A stretch of DNA of 64,000 bases from Clostridiales bacterium Firm_14 (lineage in GTDB: Bacteria > Bacillota > Clostridia > Saccharofermentanales > Saccharofermentanaceae): positions 62,001 through 126,000 of the forward strand of contig LVAT01000006.1 of NCBI GenBank assembly GCA_001604135.1. Direction: 5' to 3'. Every line of letters begins with the position of its first letter. The stretch's first letter is position 1. The translations under genes were made by a program, and so were the position numbers. Of this stretch, positions 44,500 to 63,358 are shown piece by piece. The notes beneath the pieces were generated by a model. That model saw only the letters and a list, made by a program, of their open reading frames with translations. It made no database searches and had not been told where the DNA came from.

Positions 44500-44919
44500 A
44501 TGGATAAAAAGCAATTAACAATTACTCTTTCAATTATCGCCGGCGTACTTATTCTCATTCTGGTAATAGCGCTGGCTATTCGCGGCTGTAACAAGAAAGA
44601 TGTTCTGGTTCCCACGGATACCACGGCATCTTCTGAGACTACAACCACAGAAGCGACTACGACTGAGACTGAAGAACCTACGACTACCACCACCGAAGAA
44701 GGTGAAGTCATCGTAAAACCCGATGACGGTGATACAACACCCACACCTACTCCGGCCACAACATCTTCCGGCAGCGGTTCAAGCTCAGGTTCAGGTTCAG
44801 CTACAAGTACACCTAAGCCGACTGCTACACCTACTACTAAGCCGACTGATCCTACAAAACCTACAGAGGCCGATAACGGCGTAATCGAATTGCCTTTCGT
44901 TCCCGCCGACGAACTCTGA
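44500..44919 (+). CDS. Membrane-anchored Thr/Pro-rich protein
   Basis: The 139 residues start with a signal-anchor helix (LSIIAGVLILILVIALAI), followed by 110 residues of Thr, Pro, Ser and Glu repeats (TTTTEATTTETEEPTTTTTE and TPKPTATPTTKPTDPTKPTE) ending in LPFVPADEL. It resembles a wall-spanning stalk without a functional head. The function is not evident. A strong terminator follows. Confidence 0.65.
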   Translation: MDKKQLTITLSIIAGVLILILVIALAIRGCNKKDVLVPTDTTASSETTTTEATTTETEEPTTTTTEEGEVIVKPDDGDTTPTPTPATTSSGSGSSSGSGSATSTPKPTATPTTKPTDPTKPTEADNGVIELPFVPADEL

Positions 44920-44943: not shown

Positions 44944-44976
44944 AAAGTCCCGTTCACAAGACGGGACTTTTTATAT
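44944..44976 (+). terminator. Intrinsic terminator
   Basis: AAAGTCCCGT pairs with ACGGGACTTT followed by TTATATT. Confidence 0.85.
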
Positions 44977-44994: not shown

Positions 44995-46683
44995 TCAGAA
45001 TTCGATCTTCCTGTCGCAGATATCAAGTGCTGCGGCGCGGTGCGTAACTATGATGACCGTCTTATCCGTCAGCGCACGCAGGTTCTCAAGGAGCTTTTTC
45101 TCAGTCGCGTCGTCAAGTGCGCTGGTGGCTTCATCTAGCACAAGGACAGGTGAACCGGAGAATATGGCGCGTGCGATCGCGATCCTCTGCATCTGGCCTT
45201 CGGACAGACCCGTTCCGCGCTCGCCCAACACCGTATCGATTCCGTTATCGAGTTCACTTATAAACGAATCTGCGCACGCGATCTTCAGCGCTTCGTTGAT
45301 GCGCGCATCATCAGTATCAGAAGACTTATCCGCAAAGCTTACGATCTCACGGACCGTTCCGCTCATTAGCTTATTTCCCTGCGGTACGTAAGCGAACAGG
45401 CGGTGCCATGCTGGTGTAAGTTCCTGACGCGTTCCGTCCGCAAGCGATAGATAGCGCGTGCCTGAATCAGGTTTATAGATTCCCATGAGGAGCATCAGCG
45501 CTGTCGATTTTCCGCAGCCGCTGTGTCCGGTGAACGCGACGTATTCGCCTTTCGAGATCGACAGATTTAAGCCTGATACCGCAACCGGCATATTATCCTT
45601 GATAACGTCGCCAACTTTGCTCGAAGCGGGATAGTAAGTATATGAGACATTGTCCAGGCCGATGCCTGCAAATGAATCGCGGTAGAAAGCGCATATCTTC
45701 TCACGGGGTTCGGAAACTTCAGTCAGATCGTCATCGAAAATCTCGATCTCCATGAGACGCTCAGCGCTCGCGAGCATCTGGTACCAGCGCGGCAGATAGC
45801 CCGTGATGTTTGCAAAGGGCGACTGTATCTGAGTAATGAGCTGCGCGATCGCAGTCAGCGTACCGTACTGGATCGTGCCGGTTAAGATACCGTAAGCGCA
45901 GTAGATGATTCCGAAGATATACATGCCGTTCATGGCAGCGCCGAATCCGAAGTTGCAGACATTGGAGAATCGCGTTCTCTTCATGCGTGCCTTCTTGTGA
46001 TCTGCTGCCTTCGCACGTTCTTCAATCTCTGTCTGGTCCTCTGCAGCGAAAGAGCGGATCACTGTAAGACTGCCGATACGCTCCTGCAGGAATACGCGCA
46101 GCGCACCGTCCTTCTCCTGAACTCTCTTGTGGAACTTCTTCATGGTCTTTCTGAATGTGAAAGTAAGAAGTCCGAGAACCAGTCCCAGAGGGATTACGAT
46201 AAGTGCAAAACGCAGATCGAGAACGATGAGCATTATCAGTGCAGAGAGCATCTTTACCGCCATGCCTGCAAAGCCCGGAATGATCTCCGTGTAATTATTT
46301 GCAACGACTGTCGTGTCACTCGTTAAGCGGTTAAGCCACTCGCCCGAGTGCACTGCTGCCACCCTGCCGAAATCCTTCCGGAGGATGTTATGCATGAGCC
46401 TTTCCTTGAAAAGATTCTCGAAGGTCGCGCGCGACAGTTCAGAAAGCCATCTCGATATGGCATTCATCGCAAGCTGGAAAAGTATGAGGATGATGATGCA
46501 GACGGCGCTTGCTATAAAGCCGTTCAGGTTCTTATCGACAGCGTTGTTTACGATGTCGCGGAGAAAGACCGCATACAAAACACCGCTCGCGCCGTTCAAG
46601 CACTGGACGATGGTCAATGCGAGGATGTAGAGTTTCTTTCTTCCCGGGACTTTATAAAGCCATTTTGTTGCGCTGTCGTTCAT
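44995..46683 (-). CDS. ABC exporter (fused membrane and ATPase domains), RiPP locus
   Basis: The 562-residue protein has six membrane helices in residues 1-310 and a nucleotide-binding domain with Walker A GHSGCGKSTALMLLMG, signature LSEGQMQRIAIARAI and Walker B VLVLDEATSALD. There is no N-terminal C39 peptidase domain, so the leader of a cargo peptide would need a separate protease. Its start overlaps the S24/S26 peptidase gene by four bases. It is the last gene of the presumptive peptide locus and the likely exporter of its product. Confidence 0.88.
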   Translation of the reverse strand: MNDSATKWLYKVPGRKKLYILALTIVQCLNGASGVLYAVFLRDIVNNAVDKNLNGFIASAVCIIILILFQLAMNAISRWLSELSRATFENLFKERLMHNILRKDFGRVAAVHSGEWLNRLTSDTTVVANNYTEIIPGFAGMAVKMLSALIMLIVLDLRFALIVIPLGLVLGLLTFTFRKTMKKFHKRVQEKDGALRVFLQERIGSLTVIRSFAAEDQTEIEERAKAADHKKARMKRTRFSNVCNFGFGAAMNGMYIFGIIYCAYGILTGTIQYGTLTAIAQLITQIQSPFANITGYLPRWYQMLASAERLMEIEIFDDDLTEVSEPREKICAFYRDSFAGIGLDNVSYTYYPASSKVGDVIKDNMPVAVSGLNLSISKGEYVAFTGHSGCGKSTALMLLMGIYKPDSGTRYLSLADGTRQELTPAWHRLFAYVPQGNKLMSGTVREIVSFADKSSDTDDARINEALKIACADSFISELDNGIDTVLGERGTGLSEGQMQRIAIARAIFSGSPVLVLDEATSALDDATEKKLLENLRALTDKTVIIVTHRAAALDICDRKIEF

Positions 46684-47105
46684 CTCTTCAATAGTTTTCT
46701 TAAGAATCTTTTGGTCTTAGAAATTATAACACGCACGGGATAGTGGGCATATCTTGCGCGGACGTATAACTTGTAGCCGAAACTGTTTAAGTCTATCTCT
46801 TTGCCGTTCCTGACAAGCGATGTAAGCACGCCAAGTATCTGCGATTCCTTGATGTTGTATTCCTTAGAAACGCAGTTGTCACCGAGGATGACGTAGCCGT
46901 TCTCGAGCACCTTTACGACGCGGTGCAGAACGTACTGGCCGTTCGGGCGCTTATACAGCGCAACGTCAAATTTCTTAAGGCGGCCATTGGGTTTTGAGAT
47001 TATCGAGATGTCCCTGTCCTGCTTGATCAGTGGCCGCATGCTTACGCCGACGGTCGTGTAGACCAGCTTGCCGCTTTTTTCGAGCTCTTCTTCGAAACTA
47101 ATCAT
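46680..47105 (-). CDS. S24/S26-family signal peptidase (SipW-like), RiPP locus
   Basis: The 141 residues have the catalytic Ser in VGVSMRPLIKQ and, in place of the usual Lys, a His-Arg pair in YVLHRVVKVLENG, followed by VILGDN. This Ser-His arrangement is that of SipW/ER-type signal peptidases. A basic, hydrophobic C-terminal tail (RVIISKTKRFLRKLLKR) may anchor it to the membrane. It overlaps the kinase gene by eight bases and the exporter gene by four, so it is firmly part of the locus. It probably removes the leader of the small peptide. Confidence 0.85.
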   Translation of the reverse strand: MISFEEELEKSGKLVYTTVGVSMRPLIKQDRDISIISKPNGRLKKFDVALYKRPNGQYVLHRVVKVLENGYVILGDNCVSKEYNIKESQILGVLTSLVRNGKEIDLNSFGYKLYVRARYAHYPVRVIISKTKRFLRKLLKR

Positions 47106-47808
47106 GCCTGTTCATGCCCTCGTAAGCGACCTTTGCGGCTTCTAAGTCCATATTGCAGCCGAGTCTGTAGAGCTCGACCTTCCCCGCCATTTTATCAATG
47201 AGCGCCAATGTCTTTTGCAGCGCGAAAACATCGTTCGGGCGGTATGCCTGCTGCAACAGCATAGTGTATGCCTCATCCTTAGTTACGGGAACGATCGAAT
47301 TCCCGGAAGCGCGGGTCAGGATGCAGATCGCCTTAAGCGGAACAGCGATCCTGTTGGAGAGCTTGTGCTTGCCGTCGTATGGCGTGCCGTACGCAGTGAC
47401 CACGTCACCGATATGAAGAAGCGGCTTGTCATCGTTTACCATGACCGCGCGCTCGCCAAAATACTTGCGCCACAATGCGACGTGCGTTGATTTGCCCGTA
47501 CCCGATGCTGCCGTAAAAAGATAAGCGGCACCGTCGACTGCAACAACAGATCCATGAAAAAGGATGGTGTCATAGTAAGGCATCTTCTCTGAGATCTTAC
47601 GGTAGACAGCAAGCTCTTCAAGATAGCTGTCGGGATAGCCCGGATGCTCAGCACGCGAACGCTCGTAATCGATGTCAGCCTGTGTAGTGGCTACGCTGAA
47701 ATCTACAGGTGCATTTGAGATATAAGCAGCGCAATAATCATGAACCGCCTGGTTAAGCGAATTCACTTCTACCGTCTTTCCTGCAAACTCATATTTGTTG
47801 GTCAGCAT
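47098..47808 (-). CDS. HprK-like serine kinase (PEPCK fold), RiPP locus
   Basis: The 236 residues contain the P-loop TAASGTGKSTHVALW, then MVNDDKPLLHIGD, then GTPYDGKHKLSN, the pattern of HPr kinase-like proteins found in peptide-modification clusters. In paeninodin-type lasso loci a related kinase phosphorylates a serine of the precursor. It starts after an intrinsic terminator that separates it from pqqD, so its dose is set by read-through, with AGGGCTT before the ATG. Its likely target here is the 38-residue peptide with its Ser/Thr tail; this is inference. Confidence 0.85.
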   Translation of the reverse strand: MLTNKYEFAGKTVEVNSLNQAVHDYCAAYISNAPVDFSVATTQADIDYERSRAEHPGYPDSYLEELAVYRKISEKMPYYDTILFHGSVVAVDGAAYLFTAASGTGKSTHVALWRKYFGERAVMVNDDKPLLHIGDVVTAYGTPYDGKHKLSNRIAVPLKAICILTRASGNSIVPVTKDEAYTMLLQQAYRPNDVFALQKTLALIDKMAGKVELYRLGCNMDLEAAKVAYEGMNRHD

Positions 47809-47819
47809 AAGCCCTCATA

Positions 47820-47860
47820 AAAAACGGAGACTGCCCTAAGACAGTCCCGTTGTTTTGTTT
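47820..47860 (-). terminator. Intrinsic terminator between pqqD and the kinase gene
   Basis: Leftward, ACGGGACTG and CAGTCTCCGT form a stem (one bulged T) followed by TTTTTTATG. It divides the locus into an abundant upstream part and a downstream part reached by read-through. Confidence 0.75.
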
Positions 47861-47880
47861 CTATTAGTATACCAATACTC

Positions 47881-48138
47881 TCATTCGAGTGCGCCTATCT
47901 TTTGGAGTTCGGAGATAACGCGGTCAACGTCTCTCTCGATCGCTCCCTCAGGTGCCTCAAAACGCTCTTTCATTGCCGCTACGACCTGATCTCTTGTCGT
48001 CTCTTCCTTGAGCAGTTCGACGATCGTGCCAAGCGTCTTATTCCCTTTTACGATTCCTGAGAAATCAGCACCTGAAGTAGGTACAAGATAGGATTCGTCA
48101 GAAGAATTGTGTGTAATAAAATTAGATTTAAGTTTCAT
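47881..48138 (-). CDS. PqqD-family peptide-recognition protein, RiPP locus
   Basis: I start at ATG 48138, which overlaps the peptide gene's stop (TGATG) and follows GGAGG; the longer frame from 48171 would begin inside the peptide gene. The 85 residues, beginning MKLKSNFITHNSSDESYLVP and continuing with GIVKGNKTLGTIVELL and VVAAMKERFEAPEGAIERD, match the small winged-helix RiPP-recognition domain (PqqD, RRE). Such proteins bind the leader of a precursor peptide. The direct coupling to the 38-residue gene supports that role. Confidence 0.85.
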   Translation of the reverse strand: MKLKSNFITHNSSDESYLVPTSGADFSGIVKGNKTLGTIVELLKEETTRDQVVAAMKERFEAPEGAIERDVDRVISELQKIGALE

Positions 48139-48254
48139 CAGCCTCCGACTATCTCTCCTTCTGTTGGACAATTACTACTATTGGTAATAATATCTTCTGA
48201 ATCAAATCTGATCACTTCAAGATCGAGTTCCTCATATGAGATCTTGCTTTCCAT
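48138..48254 (-). CDS. Candidate RiPP precursor peptide (38 residues)
   Basis: The frame runs from ATG 48254 to TGA 48138, preceded by AAGGGGGGA, and its stop overlaps the pqqD start. It lies 14 bases downstream of the 1027-residue protein gene. The product begins MESKISYEELDLEVIRFD and continues SEDIITNSSNCPTEGEIVGG. The first half (YEE-L-EVIRFDSEDIIT) resembles the leaders of small clostridial peptides that accompany PqqD and HprK-like genes. The tail has Ser, Cys and Thr candidate sites and ends in Gly-Gly. The gene is too short for normal ORF cut-offs. This is the probable substrate of the whole locus. Confidence 0.8.
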   Translation of the reverse strand: MESKISYEELDLEVIRFDSEDIITNSSNCPTEGEIVGG

Positions 48255-48268
48255 ATGTTCCCCCCTTA

Positions 48269-51200
48269 TCAATTACCAGGATTATTATAAGCATTTACTG
48301 CATCGTAGTACATAGCAAATGCTTTTACGAGAGATTTCATTTCAGATGTTGTGCTCTGGCTGTCAACGACTGCCTTTGCATAGTTCATAGCTGAATATGA
48401 ATAACTCTGGATCACATTTCCGTTATAGAGGATCTCTACGCTGATGCCATTTGCAAGATTGGTTGCAGGAATCTCCGCTGTCGATACCGAATAGCGGTTT
48501 CCGCCTTCCGAGACCTTGTTTACGGTCTGTCCGTTGACCTTGAATGTATAAGCATCCGGATTAGCAGTGATCGTGAAATAATGCTTGATCTTATTGCCGG
48601 ACAGGAAGACAACGCTGGATCCGTAATAACTGATGCCGTCCTGAAGGCTTCCCACAGTAACTATCTCATAAGAAGGATCTGTAAGTGTCATCGCATCCGC
48701 TGCAAAGATCGGGTCAGAAGGTCCGAACTTAAGCTGGGAATAGTAGCCGTAATTCTTGATCGCGCTTGCAAGAGCAGCCACTTTTCCCGTGTCATTGTTT
48801 GCATAATAGTCGACATAATCCCTGACGGTAAACTGCTCAAACGTGACTGAATATTCTCCGTTGGTCAGTGTCGCAGTTACGGTCTTTGTCATGTCATTCG
48901 GTGCGACCTTGAAATCGAAAACATAGAAGTCTCCTGCGCCCTCTTCCACTACATAGCGTGCAGAATCAAAGCCGATCTCCTGTGTTGCGAATTCAGGAAT
49001 AACGCTGTCTAATGTGAATGTGATCTTTGTATTTGAATCGCGGATACCCTGATCGAGCGCAACATAGTAAGAAACGCCGACATATCCGTCAAGCCTTATC
49101 CTGTAACCGCCGAACTTTGCGAGCTCATTCTGAGGATCGGGTGTGGGAGTCGGAGTATCGCCGCCTTCTTCAGTAATGGTAACGATGTAATTGCCTTCCC
49201 AACCTGCATTCTCGCCTTCAGGCTTAGTGAGAACAAACTGGTTGTTATCATCCAGCTCAATTCCTGTCATAACAACAGGTTCATCTCCGGGATTAGCCTG
49301 GCTCTCTACCTTGATCGATAATGCACCGCTGTTTTCCCTCTTGAGCAGCTTAAGATATACAGCTGTTCTGTTGCGGTCGATATTGAAGAACAGATCATCG
49401 CCGTCAGCAGCTGCTGTAGACCAGTCTTCGGTCTCGCCAAATCTGCACTGTACGCCGTCAACAACCTGAGGTGCTCCGGGGAATCTGATCTCGAATGTAC
49501 CGCCCGGTACGGGATCGCCCGGTACGTTGATACCGATCTCATAGAGTGCGCCCCATTCAGGTTCGTTAGCAGGTTTTGTAATGACGAGTTCGTTATTCTC
49601 GAAAGAGAAGCCGTCGAACGGAACAGTCTCTCCGATAAAGTACTGATCCCAGTCGATACGGAGATCAAGATTATCGACGCCTTCCTTCGGAGTAATAACA
49701 AACTTAACCTTGGTATTATTTTCATATATATCATAGCTGAGGAATTCCTCTGTCAGATCCGTTAACGCACCATCATCAAGTGAATACTGGATCTTTTCGA
49801 TCGGAGTATTCTCGCTCCTGTCGAAATTCAGATACATTCCGGGATACTTCTTTTCGCCTCTGCGGATGTAAACGTCATAAACATCTGCCCAGGAATCACC
49901 GTTTTTGGTGATATTGAATTCCCTGTCAAAGTAGCCTGTTCCTAAAGTCAATCCGCCATCTGTCGAAACATAAGTCGCAACAGGTTCTGTATCATCCTGT
50001 GTAACAACATGGAAATTAATACCCGAAGCGTTCTCATAAGCAGACAGAGGCAGGTAATCACCGTTTACCGTAAAGTTATTGCCTTCGCCTAATTCATAAT
50101 TGATCTCTGTTACAAGGCCGTCTTCGCAATGGAAATAAATACCGCTGTCTCTGATGGCAGTGACCTCTACATAGCAGGGGCCCTGGGTCCAATCGTAATC
50201 ACGTTTATAAAGCGTGAAAGAATTATTCGTTACTGTCGGAGTCAGATCGCCCTGCTTAACACTTAGCGTTCCGTTTTTCGGAACCATAGTGATAGTAATG
50301 CTTTCTGCATCGACAGGTGCGATATTTCCTTCAGGCGGAATTTCCGTAGTCTCTCCGCCTGCATACTGGTATGTATAGGAACTGAAGAGATCATCACTGA
50401 ATGCAACATAGATTCCCGCAGGATCCTGAGGGCCGGGATCACCGTCCTTAACCCATCTGGGAGAATCATAACCGGTTGTTCTGTAAGTATAAGTTTCAGT
50501 CGTTAAGTAAGTAATATTGTTGAATCCATTTCCTGTTTCAGCCGTCGTACCGTCAGAAGCATAAAGCAAAATTCCGCCGTTAACTTTGGCTCCGTTTTCA
50601 ATCAGGAGAACAGAACCATCAGCGCCTGTAAGACTGCCGTCACAAGCAGTGAGTTCTTTGAGGATATTAAGACCATTAGGCTCGGCGCCGCCATTGATCA
50701 CCACTTTGCCGGAACCTGAAATCTTCAGTTTATTAACAGTAAACTCAGTATGGCCGTCGTTGCCCGCATGGTTGATAGTTAAAACGCCATTGCTTGAAAC
50801 ACTAACTTCATTAAGGGTAGAGGGTTCTTTGACCGTCATATCCCCAAATACAAGAAGCGAATAATCATCCTGGATATCGCCTAAACCATTAATGTATGAC
50901 TCAATAGCACCTAAGTCATTCTTATCTCCCGTAAATGCGTTATCAGCTTCTGAGTAATAAGCATATCCGTTAAACTGAGCTCTGCCGCTTCCGAGAAGAA
51001 CAAATCTTAAATCAGACAGACCTCCTGCAACGATCAGACCATTGTTAACGACAACAGGTATATTGTTTTCTTCATGTTCATCGTTGTAACTGTCTTTAAT
51101 AAACTGCTCGATCGTATACGGATGCTGTGCATCCCCGCCATCTACAAAAACAGCAAAACAGAACTGCCCTTCGGGGACGCTGCCTGTATTGACGATTACA

Positions 51201-51352
51201 TCCTCGCTATCATCATTTTCCTTGCAGAAATAATAAACCGTCGGATTGGTATCTGCATTTACGGTCCTTCCGAACGGCAGGCATGTAAAGAAAACGCAGA
51301 GCGTGATCAATGCAGCAATTAAGCCGCGCGAAATTCTTAAAGTACTACTCAT
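48269..51352 (-). CDS. Large secreted modular protein heading the peptide locus
   Basis: The 1027-residue protein starts with a signal peptide (LIAALITLCVFFTCLPFG, cleavage near residue 33). Four modules of 100-120 residues end in a similar strand pair: NNSFTLYKRDYDWTQG near residue 380, DREFNITKNGDSWADVY near 484, NNELVITKPANEPEWGALY near 587 and NNQFVLTKPEGENAGWEGNY near 707, so they are tandem beta-domains. A Thr/Pro linker at about 738 leads to a 290-residue C-terminal domain beginning FGGYRIRLDGYVGVSYYVAL. No sortase signal is seen. AGTAGGTGG precedes the start. It is transcribed with the peptide gene and may be its target, carrier or a linked surface protein. Confidence 0.8.
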   Translation of the reverse strand: MSSTLRISRGLIAALITLCVFFTCLPFGRTVNADTNPTVYYFCKENDDSEDVIVNTGSVPEGQFCFAVFVDGGDAQHPYTIEQFIKDSYNDEHEENNIPVVVNNGLIVAGGLSDLRFVLLGSGRAQFNGYAYYSEADNAFTGDKNDLGAIESYINGLGDIQDDYSLLVFGDMTVKEPSTLNEVSVSSNGVLTINHAGNDGHTEFTVNKLKISGSGKVVINGGAEPNGLNILKELTACDGSLTGADGSVLLIENGAKVNGGILLYASDGTTAETGNGFNNITYLTTETYTYRTTGYDSPRWVKDGDPGPQDPAGIYVAFSDDLFSSYTYQYAGGETTEIPPEGNIAPVDAESITITMVPKNGTLSVKQGDLTPTVTNNSFTLYKRDYDWTQGPCYVEVTAIRDSGIYFHCEDGLVTEINYELGEGNNFTVNGDYLPLSAYENASGINFHVVTQDDTEPVATYVSTDGGLTLGTGYFDREFNITKNGDSWADVYDVYIRRGEKKYPGMYLNFDRSENTPIEKIQYSLDDGALTDLTEEFLSYDIYENNTKVKFVITPKEGVDNLDLRIDWDQYFIGETVPFDGFSFENNELVITKPANEPEWGALYEIGINVPGDPVPGGTFEIRFPGAPQVVDGVQCRFGETEDWSTAAADGDDLFFNIDRNRTAVYLKLLKRENSGALSIKVESQANPGDEPVVMTGIELDDNNQFVLTKPEGENAGWEGNYIVTITEEGGDTPTPTPDPQNELAKFGGYRIRLDGYVGVSYYVALDQGIRDSNTKITFTLDSVIPEFATQEIGFDSARYVVEEGAGDFYVFDFKVAPNDMTKTVTATLTNGEYSVTFEQFTVRDYVDYYANNDTGKVAALASAIKNYGYYSQLKFGPSDPIFAADAMTLTDPSYEIVTVGSLQDGISYYGSSVVFLSGNKIKHYFTITANPDAYTFKVNGQTVNKVSEGGNRYSVSTAEIPATNLANGISVEILYNGNVIQSYSYSAMNYAKAVVDSQSTTSEMKSLVKAFAMYYDAVNAYNNPGN

Positions 51353-61132: not shown

Positions 61133-63334
61133 TTATATGATTCCGTTTTCATTAAGCCAGGCGGATACATCTTTTGGCATGGATGAACCGCCGGAATAGT
61201 GGATCGACAGGCCGTCCTCCAAAACGGCATCGGGTGCGAGCTTTGCTATCGCCGTCAGGCTCTGGCCGAACTTGCCGCCGCCGTGGGAACAGAAAGGAAG
61301 TATGCGCTTGTTTGTAAAGTCATACTGTTCAAGGAAGGATGCGATTGGCATCGGTATCGACGCCCACCAGTTCGGATAACCTAATATGATCGTGTCATAT
61401 TGATCCCAGTTCTCGACCTTGCCCTTGATCTCCGGTCTGGCCTGATTATGCTGGTCTTCCTGAGCCTGCATCAGGACAGTGTTGTAGCTTGATGAGTAAG
61501 GCTTTACAAGCGTGATCTCGAAAATATCGGCGCCTGTCTGCTTCTGTATCTCATTTGCGATCTTCCTGGTATTGCCGCCCCACGAGAAGTAAACGATCAG
61601 GACCTTGCCGTCTGCCTTTGCCGTGGTATCCGATGCTTTGGCATTTACGGTTCCCGTGCGGTTATAATCCGCATTTCTTACCAGGCGCACGCCAAGGTTA
61701 TAACTTGCAAGATTCGTCTCTCCTGCTGCTCTGTAAGCACTTCTCATGTTCTTTCCGAAGTCATTCCATCCGCCGCCGCGGTAAACGTGTCTTGTGCCGG
61801 TTGCAGCACCGGTGGGATCTGTTTTCGCGGTCACATCGTAATCGCCGTAGTAATCCCAGCACCACTCATTTACATTGCCGTGGCAGTCGTAAAGACCCCA
61901 GTCATTTGGCTCAAAACTTCCAACGTCGACCGTTGTCTCACGGTATTCGCCGGGCCTTGCCTCGAGCACGGAATCATTGAAATAGTTCTCTTCGATCTCA
62001 TAAGGATAGTGACCGTAGAAATTTGCTTCCGTCGCATCAAGTGACTTCTTCAGATTGAAAGGTGTCAGCGTGCCCGCACGGCATGCATATTCCCACTCTG
62101 CCTCAGTCGGAAGCCTGTATCCGTTAGCGGAGATGTCCCAGCTTACGCCGTCTTCCGATACCGTATAGACCGGCGTAAGTCCTGCCTCCTTGCTCTTGGC
62201 GTTCGCGAAAGCAATGGCATCAAGCCAGGAGATATTCTCTACAGGGAGCTTTTCACCTTTGAAATTGCTCGGATTGCTGCCCATCAGACGCTCATATTCT
62301 GCCTGCGTGGTCTCATAAGGATCGATATAGAAGGACGATACACTTACTTCATGCTGTGTCTCATCTTCGATGCGCCAGTTTTCCGTCTCAGGGCTTCCCA
62401 TAAGGAATTTGCCTCCGTTTATCAGGAGGAAACCGTCGTCTATCTTAGTAAGATCAGTAACCCCTGAAGATGCGGCAGACGTATCACCTGAAGTCGAAGC
62501 AACCGCACTTTCCGTAGTCTGCGAAGATGTCTCCTGTGCGGAAGGCTCCCAGCCTGAACTGCCTATATTATCATTTGTATTTTTCGAGAAGATCATATTC
62601 ATCACCAATCCCATAATCACTGCGCACAGAACGAATATCAGATGTATCAGCTTCTTATTTGTCTTGTCGCTGCTCTTATTCTGAACAGCTGACATCAGGG
62701 CAGCCTTTTCGCCGATATAAGCCCAGAAGACCAGTATCAGAATGTTTTCGATAAACACAAGGACTCCTGCCTTCTCGTAATCCAGGAAAGCAAAAGGCAC
62801 TCTGAAGAACAGATAATCGAAGATCCTGTTCTGAATAAAAAAGTACAGGCCTGTTCCGGCTGCCAGACAGAACACGGCAGACAAAACCGTCTTAACTTTA
62901 TCAGAGAGCTTGAACCCGGCTGTTATCACCGGCACATGAAGCCCCAGGTGTATACCCATCAGTACAAATGACCAGTGGGACATGGAAAGATGCATCTGTC
63001 TTGCAAGCGAGACCTTTACCATTCCGTACATGAAAGGAACTGCGTGTCCGCTCATCGACATACCGCTTACTGCGGTCATTGTCATGGACAGAAGGAGCAG
63101 TATAGCCGCCGCAGTCAGCAGTATCCTGTATCCGGTGTATCTGCCTTTGAAAAGCGCGCCATACCACTTTCTGTTTAAGATCTGGTGCACGATAACTGTC
63201 ACCGTCATTCCGATGCCTATCCATTCGTGCAGGAAATCACCTGTCACCTGGTAGGCCATCAGGCAAAGAAGGAGGACAGTCATTAAAACATCAACACTTC
63301 TTTTGATGACCATGCTGTTCTTGTTATCTTTCAT
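61133..63334 (-). CDS. DUF4405 membrane domain - formylglycine-generating enzyme domain - flavodoxin fusion
   Basis: I start at ATG 63334 behind GGAGGAGG; this gives 733 residues. Residues 10-260 have seven membrane helices with histidines in FLHEWIG, VIVHQIL, SHWSF and GIHLGLH, the pattern of the DUF4405 cytochrome-b561-like family. A Ser/Thr linker (residues 265-300) leads to a formylglycine-generating-enzyme/SUMF1 domain at about 305-555: GGKFLMGSPETENWR, YRLPTEAEWEYACRAG, HGNVNEWCWDYYG and RGGGWND. The last 150 residues are flavodoxin: VLIVYFSWGGNTRKIANE and GYPNWWASIPMP. With a cytoplasmic basic start and seven helices, both soluble domains would lie outside. It follows a lipoprotein flavodoxin gene by 25 bases. 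Confidence 0.82.
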   Translation of the reverse strand: MKDNKNSMVIKRSVDVLMTVLLLCLMAYQVTGDFLHEWIGIGMTVTVIVHQILNRKWYGALFKGRYTGYRILLTAAAILLLLSMTMTAVSGMSMSGHAVPFMYGMVKVSLARQMHLSMSHWSFVLMGIHLGLHVPVITAGFKLSDKVKTVLSAVFCLAAGTGLYFFIQNRIFDYLFFRVPFAFLDYEKAGVLVFIENILILVFWAYIGEKAALMSAVQNKSSDKTNKKLIHLIFVLCAVIMGLVMNMIFSKNTNDNIGSSGWEPSAQETSSQTTESAVASTSGDTSAASSGVTDLTKIDDGFLLINGGKFLMGSPETENWRIEDETQHEVSVSSFYIDPYETTQAEYERLMGSNPSNFKGEKLPVENISWLDAIAFANAKSKEAGLTPVYTVSEDGVSWDISANGYRLPTEAEWEYACRAGTLTPFNLKKSLDATEANFYGHYPYEIEENYFNDSVLEARPGEYRETTVDVGSFEPNDWGLYDCHGNVNEWCWDYYGDYDVTAKTDPTGAATGTRHVYRGGGWNDFGKNMRSAYRAAGETNLASYNLGVRLVRNADYNRTGTVNAKASDTTAKADGKVLIVYFSWGGNTRKIANEIQKQTGADIFEITLVKPYSSSYNTVLMQAQEDQHNQARPEIKGKVENWDQYDTIILGYPNWWASIPMPIASFLEQYDFTNKRILPFCSHGGGKFGQSLTAIAKLAPDAVLEDGLSIHYSGGSSMPKDVSAWLNENGII

Positions 63335-63358
63335 AAGACGTCCTCCTCCGTTCATTAA

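Follow-up and report, generated by a model that had tools for sequence, protein, structure and literature searches.

The 64,000-nucleotide stretch of Clostridiales bacterium Firm_14 studied here (contig LVAT01000006.1, forward-strand positions 62,001–126,000; hereafter the window) contains, at positions 44995–51352 of its minus strand, a six-gene locus. It is probably one substrate cassette together with the central module that processes and exports a dispersed set of leader peptides. In 5′ to 3′ order, the locus encodes a giant secreted-type protein, a 38-residue peptide, a PqqD-family protein, an HprK-like kinase, an S26 peptidase, and an ATP-binding cassette (ABC) exporter. The peptide belongs to a dispersed family, with eight matches on six contigs of its own genome (E ≤ 4.7e-5). 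Judged from sequence, the system resembles a ribosomally synthesized and post-translationally modified peptide (RiPP) pathway in which leader and RiPP recognition element (RRE) act in trans. A preliminary description of this DNA treated PqqD, kinase, peptidase, and exporter as one module, which is supported here; it missed that the peptides appear to form a dispersed family served in trans, and that the giant protein appears to belong to the cassette.

Organization of the locus

All six leftward genes of the preliminary description are present where it placed them, including an unlisted 38-codon gene with a ribosome site (AAGGGGGG) 5 nt ahead of its ATG and a stop codon that overlaps pqqD. The features of the locus are as follows.

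48269–51352, minus strand: giant secreted-type protein, 1027 residues, with an N-terminal signal-type segment
48269–49021, minus strand: C-terminal 250 residues of the giant, two repeats, each a β-sandwich and a helical hairpin (from alignments, a model, and a genome search)
48269–48574, minus strand: last approximately 100 residues of the giant, which define the C-terminal domain (C-domain) common to other peptide-paired proteins
48138–48254, minus strand: 38-residue leader peptide gene; leader residues 1–26 at 48177–48254, stop codon at 48138–48140
48141–48176, minus strand: predicted tail of the window peptide, SNCPTEGEIVGG
47881–48138, minus strand: PqqD-family protein (PF05402), 85 residues from its ATG, presumed leader binder
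47827–47848, minus strand: terminator-like hairpin in the pqqD/hprK gap, nine pairs then a T-rich run (consensus match only)
47098–47808, minus strand: HprK-fold kinase with P-loop, H85, K106, D127, and GTPxxGK
46680–47105, minus strand: S26 (SipW/archaeal-type) peptidase with S-M-R-P and L-H-R motifs
44995–46683, minus strand: ABC exporter, 562 residues, with membrane and ATPase domains and no C39 peptidase domain among the listed domains

The overlaps previously noted in most joints hold for three of the five (peptide/pqqD, 1 nt; hprK/S26, 8 nt; S26/ABC, 4 nt). The other two joints are gaps, of 14 nt between the giant and peptide genes and 72 nt between pqqD and hprK. The latter holds the terminator-like hairpin, which suggests that the processing enzymes may be produced in smaller amounts than the peptide and PqqD.

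A dispersed family of leader peptides

The window peptide was compared with a set of 148 genomes of relatives, its own (G000) included; G, L, and C numbers denote genomes, fetched loci, and contigs. Searches with an alignment of seven peptides gave strong matches (best E ≤ 1e-4, our own threshold) in 25 of the 148. The fetched and kept stretches contain 68 peptides, 67 of them distinct, and a second set of 25 comes from loci L154–L223; 65 of the 67 and 22 of the 25 could be parsed, leaving two and three unparsed and giving 87 parsed peptides. The peptides are 30–60 residues long. A conserved leader of approximately 25 residues, with a motif of near-fixed length in nearly all (Y-x5-E-[VI]-[IV]-x-F-x3-D-[VI]-I-x-x-S), precedes a separate variable core at the predicted boundary. 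The tails are short, acidic, and variable, with a median of 11 residues and mostly 5–20.

The motif ends in a Ser that is present in every parsed peptide (65/65 and 22/22). Val or Thr occupies position −3 relative to the junction in 59 of 65 peptides, and position −2 is free. Signal peptidases follow a −3/−1 rule, and by that rule Ser at −1 with Val or Thr at −3 fits a signal-peptidase-type cut after the Ser. An ordinary signal-peptidase site should tolerate Ala and Gly at −1 too, and the strictness of the Ser may leave room for phosphorylation there.

Shine–Dalgarno-like sites precede 56 of the 65 parsed peptide genes, compared with 130 of 1779 other small ATG ORFs (open reading frames). Because the motif recurs eight times in the genome and such sites are enriched, the 38-codon gene is, on this sequence evidence, more than a chance ORF; a translational leader or chance ORF is likewise disfavored by the motif, the Shine–Dalgarno-like sites, and the adjacency controls given below. 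At E ≤ 0.1, Pfam and NCBIfam returned no model for any of the 40 peptides scanned, and none of the papers listed by the literature searches deals with this leader peptide family. Similar peptides and modules occur in named loci of Ruminococcus flavefaciens. At L164:7086–7628, a lipoprotein-like, Ser/Thr-rich ORF continues in frame into a leader peptide with the tail SIELPIIPIR, and the peptide by itself could also begin at an internal ATG.

In the closest relatives the peptide lies directly before pqqD in six fetched loci (L038–L042 and L044), where the leader predicted earlier (Y-E-x4-E-V-I-x4-E-D-I-I-T), followed by a variable tail, was found. The absence of a peptide from this place in related genomes had been named as evidence against the earlier reading. 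Three syntenic modules (L045–L047, from G023, G059, and G063) do lack an adjoining peptide, yet their genomes carry peptides elsewhere. Dispersed as they are, the peptides would have to be served in trans.

Giant secreted proteins with a shared C-terminal domain

All eight peptides of the genome lie directly 3′ of a gene for a protein of 744–1485 residues. A signal-type segment is found in seven of these upstream proteins (the eighth, in L105, begins near a contig end) and the C-domain in all eight. Across the loci, a signal-bearing ORF of at least 600 residues precedes 56 of the 68 peptide genes, as against 132 of 4945 other small ORFs in the same loci. The window giant has no Pfam or NCBIfam match at E ≤ 1; BspA-type leucine-rich repeats (LRR_5) occur in four of five sister giants scanned.

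The C-domain was matched in 57 of 63 upstream proteins, and in 34 of the 40 that were not used for model building. The control is not clean, as 41 of 409 other long ORFs also match, mostly truncated giant copies in short loci (L065–L103). Seven of the 63 giants (L052, L057, L104, L111, L121, L140, and L141) were left out of the C-terminal alignment; a whole-protein search matches the C-domain in four of these (L057, L104, L111, and L141). The modeled domain is a β-sandwich with a helical hairpin, present twice in the window protein (predicted local distance difference test, pLDDT, 91). A Foldseek search with the C-terminal model gave no PDB match at E ≤ 0.001, which does not show a new fold.

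Two arrangements of these genes are recorded here as observations. On G000:C9 (L107:8992–9614), two giant/peptide cassettes face each other with their peptide ORFs approximately 260 bp apart. On G051:C34 (L259, L057), at least seven C-domain proteins are encoded in tandem, and the array closes with a single peptide gene close to a SPASM-bearing module.

Co-occurrence of module, peptides, and C-domain

PqqD relatives are present in 27 of the 148 genomes, the window's own included, and the C-domain in 32. The pairwise counts (both/first only/second only/neither) are 20/7/5/116 for PqqD and peptide (p = 1.3e-14), 24/8/1/115 for C-domain and peptide (p = 9e-20), and 24/8/3/113 for C-domain and PqqD (p = 9e-18), by Fisher tests that ignore relatedness. 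Genome G005 looks like a natural loss of module, peptides, and C-domain: pqqD is kept, a 53-residue hprK remnant stands at the site, S26 and ABC genes were not found there, and the genome has neither a strong short peptide nor a C-domain match. G005 retains a module of the second type described below.

Several observations weigh against a central module serving dispersed cassettes, beginning with the neglect of relatedness in these tests. Genome G019, which is 97% complete, has peptides and C-domain without a match to the PqqD or kinase queries, and the less complete G003, G036, G042, and G057 also have peptides without a PqqD or HprK match. Conversely, seven PqqD genomes lack strong short peptides, although two of them (G073 and G076) carry divergent peptides in their loci (L062 and L063). 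Four genomes (G038, G049, G054, and G074) have the C-domain but neither a PqqD match nor a strong peptide. A one-to-one rule is also contradicted by the many C-domain proteins that lack a peptide behind them (L259–L264) and by the G051 arrays, which are mostly peptide-free. Six of the 63 upstream proteins have no C-domain match. The suggested joint role of tail and giant has gene order and co-occurrence as its whole basis. The leader has no synonymous excess among close orthologues (2 vs 7 bases, 26 codons). Finally, an unparsed 27-residue ORF in L206 reads DVITTA at the junction and an unparsed peptide in L052 departs from the motif; the junction Ser is therefore not beyond exception.

Module proteins

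The window PqqD protein scores above the Pfam gathering threshold (PF05402, 38.1 vs 23.4 bits). Encoded beside the precursor and conserved, it is a candidate RRE. Of the 27 loci fetched around PqqD matches, 24 carry full-length hprK; only a remnant is left in L054, the gene is missing from L056 and L061, and in L052 it adjoins a second pqqD copy.

The AlphaFold model of the kinase (pLDDT 94) has an HprK/P-PEPCK fold (Foldseek 1kkm, E 1.5e-6), and aligns to the HprK/P structure 1ko7 with a VIA Z of 12.3 and a root-mean-square deviation of 2.5 over 120 residues. All 13 kinases aligned keep H85, the P-loop with K106, D127, and GTPxxGK, and D126 is nearly invariant among them. By our residue matching, the His-Lys-Asp-Asp residues of PadeK-type kinases, a motif described in the consulted part of PMC9266682, are present. 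A PDB sequence search with the kinase alignment gave three chance-level matches only (E ≥ 0.23). A scan of genome contigs with the kinase yielded 455 encoding stretches; the 80 of these that were kept come from Saccharofermentans, Ruminococcus (including R. flavefaciens FD-1, ND2009, SAb67, and YAD2003), and other Clostridia. The Saccharofermentans kinases are 66–84% identical to that of the window.

The S26 protein falls below the cut-offs for archaeal-type signal peptidase I (TIGR02228, 26.7 vs 51.85 bits) and SipW (NF046067, 19.5 vs 190 bits). S-M-x-P and [LI]-H-R, which we take to be the catalytic Ser and His motifs of S26 peptidases, are kept in 23 listed S26 proteins, as read by eye. The exporter contains PF00664 (107 bits) and PF00005 (92 bits). 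In L051 (10674–11099), the S26 peptidase is only 35% identical to that of the window while its module neighbors are 66–77% identical, and it looks like a swapped gene.

A second module and a portable leader

The genome encodes a second module (G000:C23, L037:11299–16307) with PqqD, S26, HprK-like kinase (48% identical to that of the window), and ABC proteins; an acyltransferase gene is also present. Just upstream is a 146-residue ORF in which MKTPEMEVVRFNESDVIVASG is followed by approximately 100 residues. G005 has two similar long-core ORFs, one adjoining its second module. In both genomes the leader [TR]P[EK]M[ED]VVRFxxxDVI[VA]AS stands ahead of cores of approximately 90–100 residues. One leader on tails of mostly 5–20 residues or on cores of approximately 100 is the pattern expected of a leader-directed export route.

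From conservation, adjacency, co-occurrence, and the like leader on long cores, we infer the binding, cut site, export, and other biochemical roles that follow. PqqD would act as the RRE that binds the leader, the cut made by the S26 peptidase would follow the conserved Ser in D-[VI]-I-x-x-S, and the ABC protein would export the tail, with processing and export in trans. In support of such leader binding, nanomolar affinity for a lasso leader is described for a PqqD-type B1 protein (consulted part of PMC5067487). The exported tail would then act with the secreted protein encoded just upstream, often one with BspA-type leucine-rich repeats and the common C-domain. In one subclass, that of Cys-containing tails (often C-x-x-E-[LT]-P), a radical S-adenosylmethionine (SAM)/SPASM enzyme would modify the tail.

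Modifying enzymes and the substrate of the kinase

The preliminary description read the locus as a lean RiPP cluster in which phosphorylation of core Ser or Thr by the HprK-like kinase is the sole modification. The HprK fold and kinase motifs are kept, the window tail contains Ser and Thr, and related kinases phosphorylate lasso precursors, specifically their C-terminal Ser in the known cases (consulted part of PMC9266682). However, 12 of 65 and 11 of 22 parsed tails (23/87) contain no Ser, Thr, or Tyr, so that the kinase cannot be a general tail kinase, and its role as a universal Ser/Thr modifier of the tail is ruled out. A C-terminal Ser, the PadeK site, is found in only one of 87 peptides.

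Other candidate modifiers are also encoded. In L055, L057, and L058, the kinase gene shares an operon with that of a radical SAM/SPASM protein. The SPASM family (E ≤ 1e-50) is present in nine of the 148 genomes, the window's own included, and all nine have module and peptides. The earlier statement that no radical SAM gene is present is true of the 6-kb locus, but not of the genome, where a SPASM maturase 36–37% identical to those of L055, L057, and L058 lies beside another cassette (G000:C13, L104:8539–15140) together with a giant, a peptide ending DPDCTWELPRN, and a stalk protein ending HDWELPRV. An NTP_transf_5 gene is found in the module of R. flavefaciens ND2009 (L185) and in L052; genes of like length, matched by length only, are found in L164, L177, L179, and L198. 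The NTP_transf_5 gene of the window's own genome, at C13:285–300 kb, is outside the fetched peptide cassette at 249–267 kb. With SPASM and NTP_transf_5 genes present, the kinase is not the only candidate modifier, and we consider tail phosphorylation as the sole modification improbable.

The SPASM enzymes recall the maturases of ranthipeptides and sactipeptides, in that some cassettes place them beside Cys peptides (CTWELP, CQYELP, CKFETP, CPSELE). In contrast, the four proteins scanned score 114, 144, 114, and 146 bits against the nearest model, TIGR04463, whose cut-off is 525. Cys occurs in 19 of 65 parsed tails, including tails in G023, where the SPASM family was not matched, and no peptide was seen in the stretches around two of the nine SPASM genes (L245 and L246); both observations weigh against a tight link between SPASM enzyme and Cys tail.

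The likeliest target of the kinase is the junction Ser or a non-peptide partner, and not the tail in general. The first of these targets would refine the central-module reading: phosphorylation of the Ser in D-[VI]-I-x-x-S would gate the S26 cut. The Ser is invariant in the parsed peptides where a plain −1 site might hold Ala or Gly, and full-length hprK accompanies PqqD in most loci. A strict peptidase preference would also explain the invariance, the L206 ORF has Ala in place of the Ser, and HprK could act on another protein; such gating is possible, but we hold it only tentatively.

Comparison with known systems

Paeninodin-type lasso clusters of Firmicutes, with a split B1 protein and a PadeK-type kinase, are among the closest known systems, sharing a PqqD-type leader binder, an HprK-type kinase, an ABC exporter and, in some modules here, NTP_transf_5. 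The leader is of the Y-x-x-P-x-[IL] kind, presumably as in paeninodin-type lasso precursors. Differences lie in the S26 peptidase, which stands here in place of cyclase and B2 protease, and in the peptides, which have short tails without C-terminal Ser, are dispersed, and are paired with secreted proteins.

A rival reading is a lasso cluster with its cyclase and B2 protease elsewhere in the genome. HprK, PqqD, and nucleotidyltransferase genes accompany lasso clusters in rumen bacteria, and the leader resembles lasso leaders of R. flavefaciens (both from the consulted part of PMC7533575). However, the transglutaminase-like B2 protease (PF13471) has no match in the window's genome, and no asparagine-synthase-like cyclase is encoded in the locus, the genome giving only a 22.1-bit Asn_synthase match of 31 residues. 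The median tail of 11 residues is also shorter than lasso cores of 22–39 residues (same part of PMC7533575). Without B2 or a cyclase-sized Asn_synthase in the genome, a lasso cluster is rejected as very improbable. The AsnB protein beside L201, the one locus scanned in this respect, is of the usual Asn_synthase/GATase type and is encoded on the opposite strand.

Prochlorosins form a trans-acting RiPP system in which one enzyme set serves many scattered precursors with one leader and variable cores. The peptides here share this arrangement of one enzyme set and many precursors, but there is no lanthionine synthetase, and the precursors lie behind giant secreted proteins. The best NCBIfam match of the kinase is ScmC (26.6 bits), and the SPASM protein of a related module matches ScmE (48.5 bits), both of which we take to be members of the SynChlorMet cassette; the scores are far below the curated cut-offs of 125 and 400 bits. 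The HPr-rel-A system (TIGR04352, HprK_rel_A) presumably also pairs an HprK-related protein with a PqqD-type partner, but the window kinase scores 16.2 bits against a cut-off of 200. In the searched text of a 2026 survey of bacteriocins from rumen isolates, the words PqqD, HPr, and Saccharofermentans are absent (PMC13289728).

Stalk proteins and shared tails

Convergent with the ABC gene is a gene for a stalk protein, and a further ORF was noted elsewhere in the window.

44500–44919, plus strand: stalk protein with one N-terminal hydrophobic segment, a Thr/Ser-rich stretch, and the C-terminal tail NGVIELPFVPADEL
44944–44970, plus strand: terminator-like hairpin between the stalk and ABC genes (consensus match only; a weaker one is called in the same place on the other strand)
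61133–63355: 740-residue ORF that, by eye, combines membrane segments with sulfatase-modifying-factor-like and flavodoxin-like parts

In relatives, 11 genes of similar length flank the module, and 10 of them encode the stalk protein (in L046 the ORF picked is on the other strand). Stalk proteins end in ELP-type tails (WELPR, IELPFVP), and ELP occurs in eight of the 87 peptide tails, compared with a mean of 1.09 in shuffled tails (2000 sets, maximum 5). Peptide and stalk tails are near-identical in L104 (CTWELPRN/HDWELPRV) and L137 (WELPDH/EWELPEL).

It is tempting to speculate that the tails are ligands of the C-domain of the giants, that like-tailed membrane stalks tether the giants, and that exported tails compete with this tethering or license it. 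The tails shared by neighboring peptides and stalks, the ELP enrichment, the stalk gene adjoining the module in close loci, and the co-occurrence of C-domain, peptide, and module are consistent with such a surface assembly. On the other hand, 79 of the 87 tails, that of the window included, lack ELP, and many of the giants are encoded without an adjacent peptide or stalk. We regard this idea as speculative and rather unlikely.

Implications

Taken to its furthest extent, the proposed central module would exemplify a principle of surface assembly or signaling in rumen Clostridia: one module would ripen a genome-wide set of leader peptides, most of them encoded together with a secreted C-domain protein; the exported tail, mimicked by membrane stalks with the same WELP/IELP-type ending, would decide whether its partner stays on the cell or is released; and phosphorylation of the junction Ser would gate the cut. 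This principle is somewhat less likely still than the surface assembly itself. If the reading of the locus as a central module is true, trans-acting peptide export tied to large surface proteins would exist in rumen Saccharofermentans and Ruminococcus, including cultured R. flavefaciens, and the HprK/PqqD/NTP_transf_5 gene set would become testable outside lasso clusters in culturable bacteria. Genes as small as these are easily left unannotated, and the leader motif would let genome miners find the precursors.

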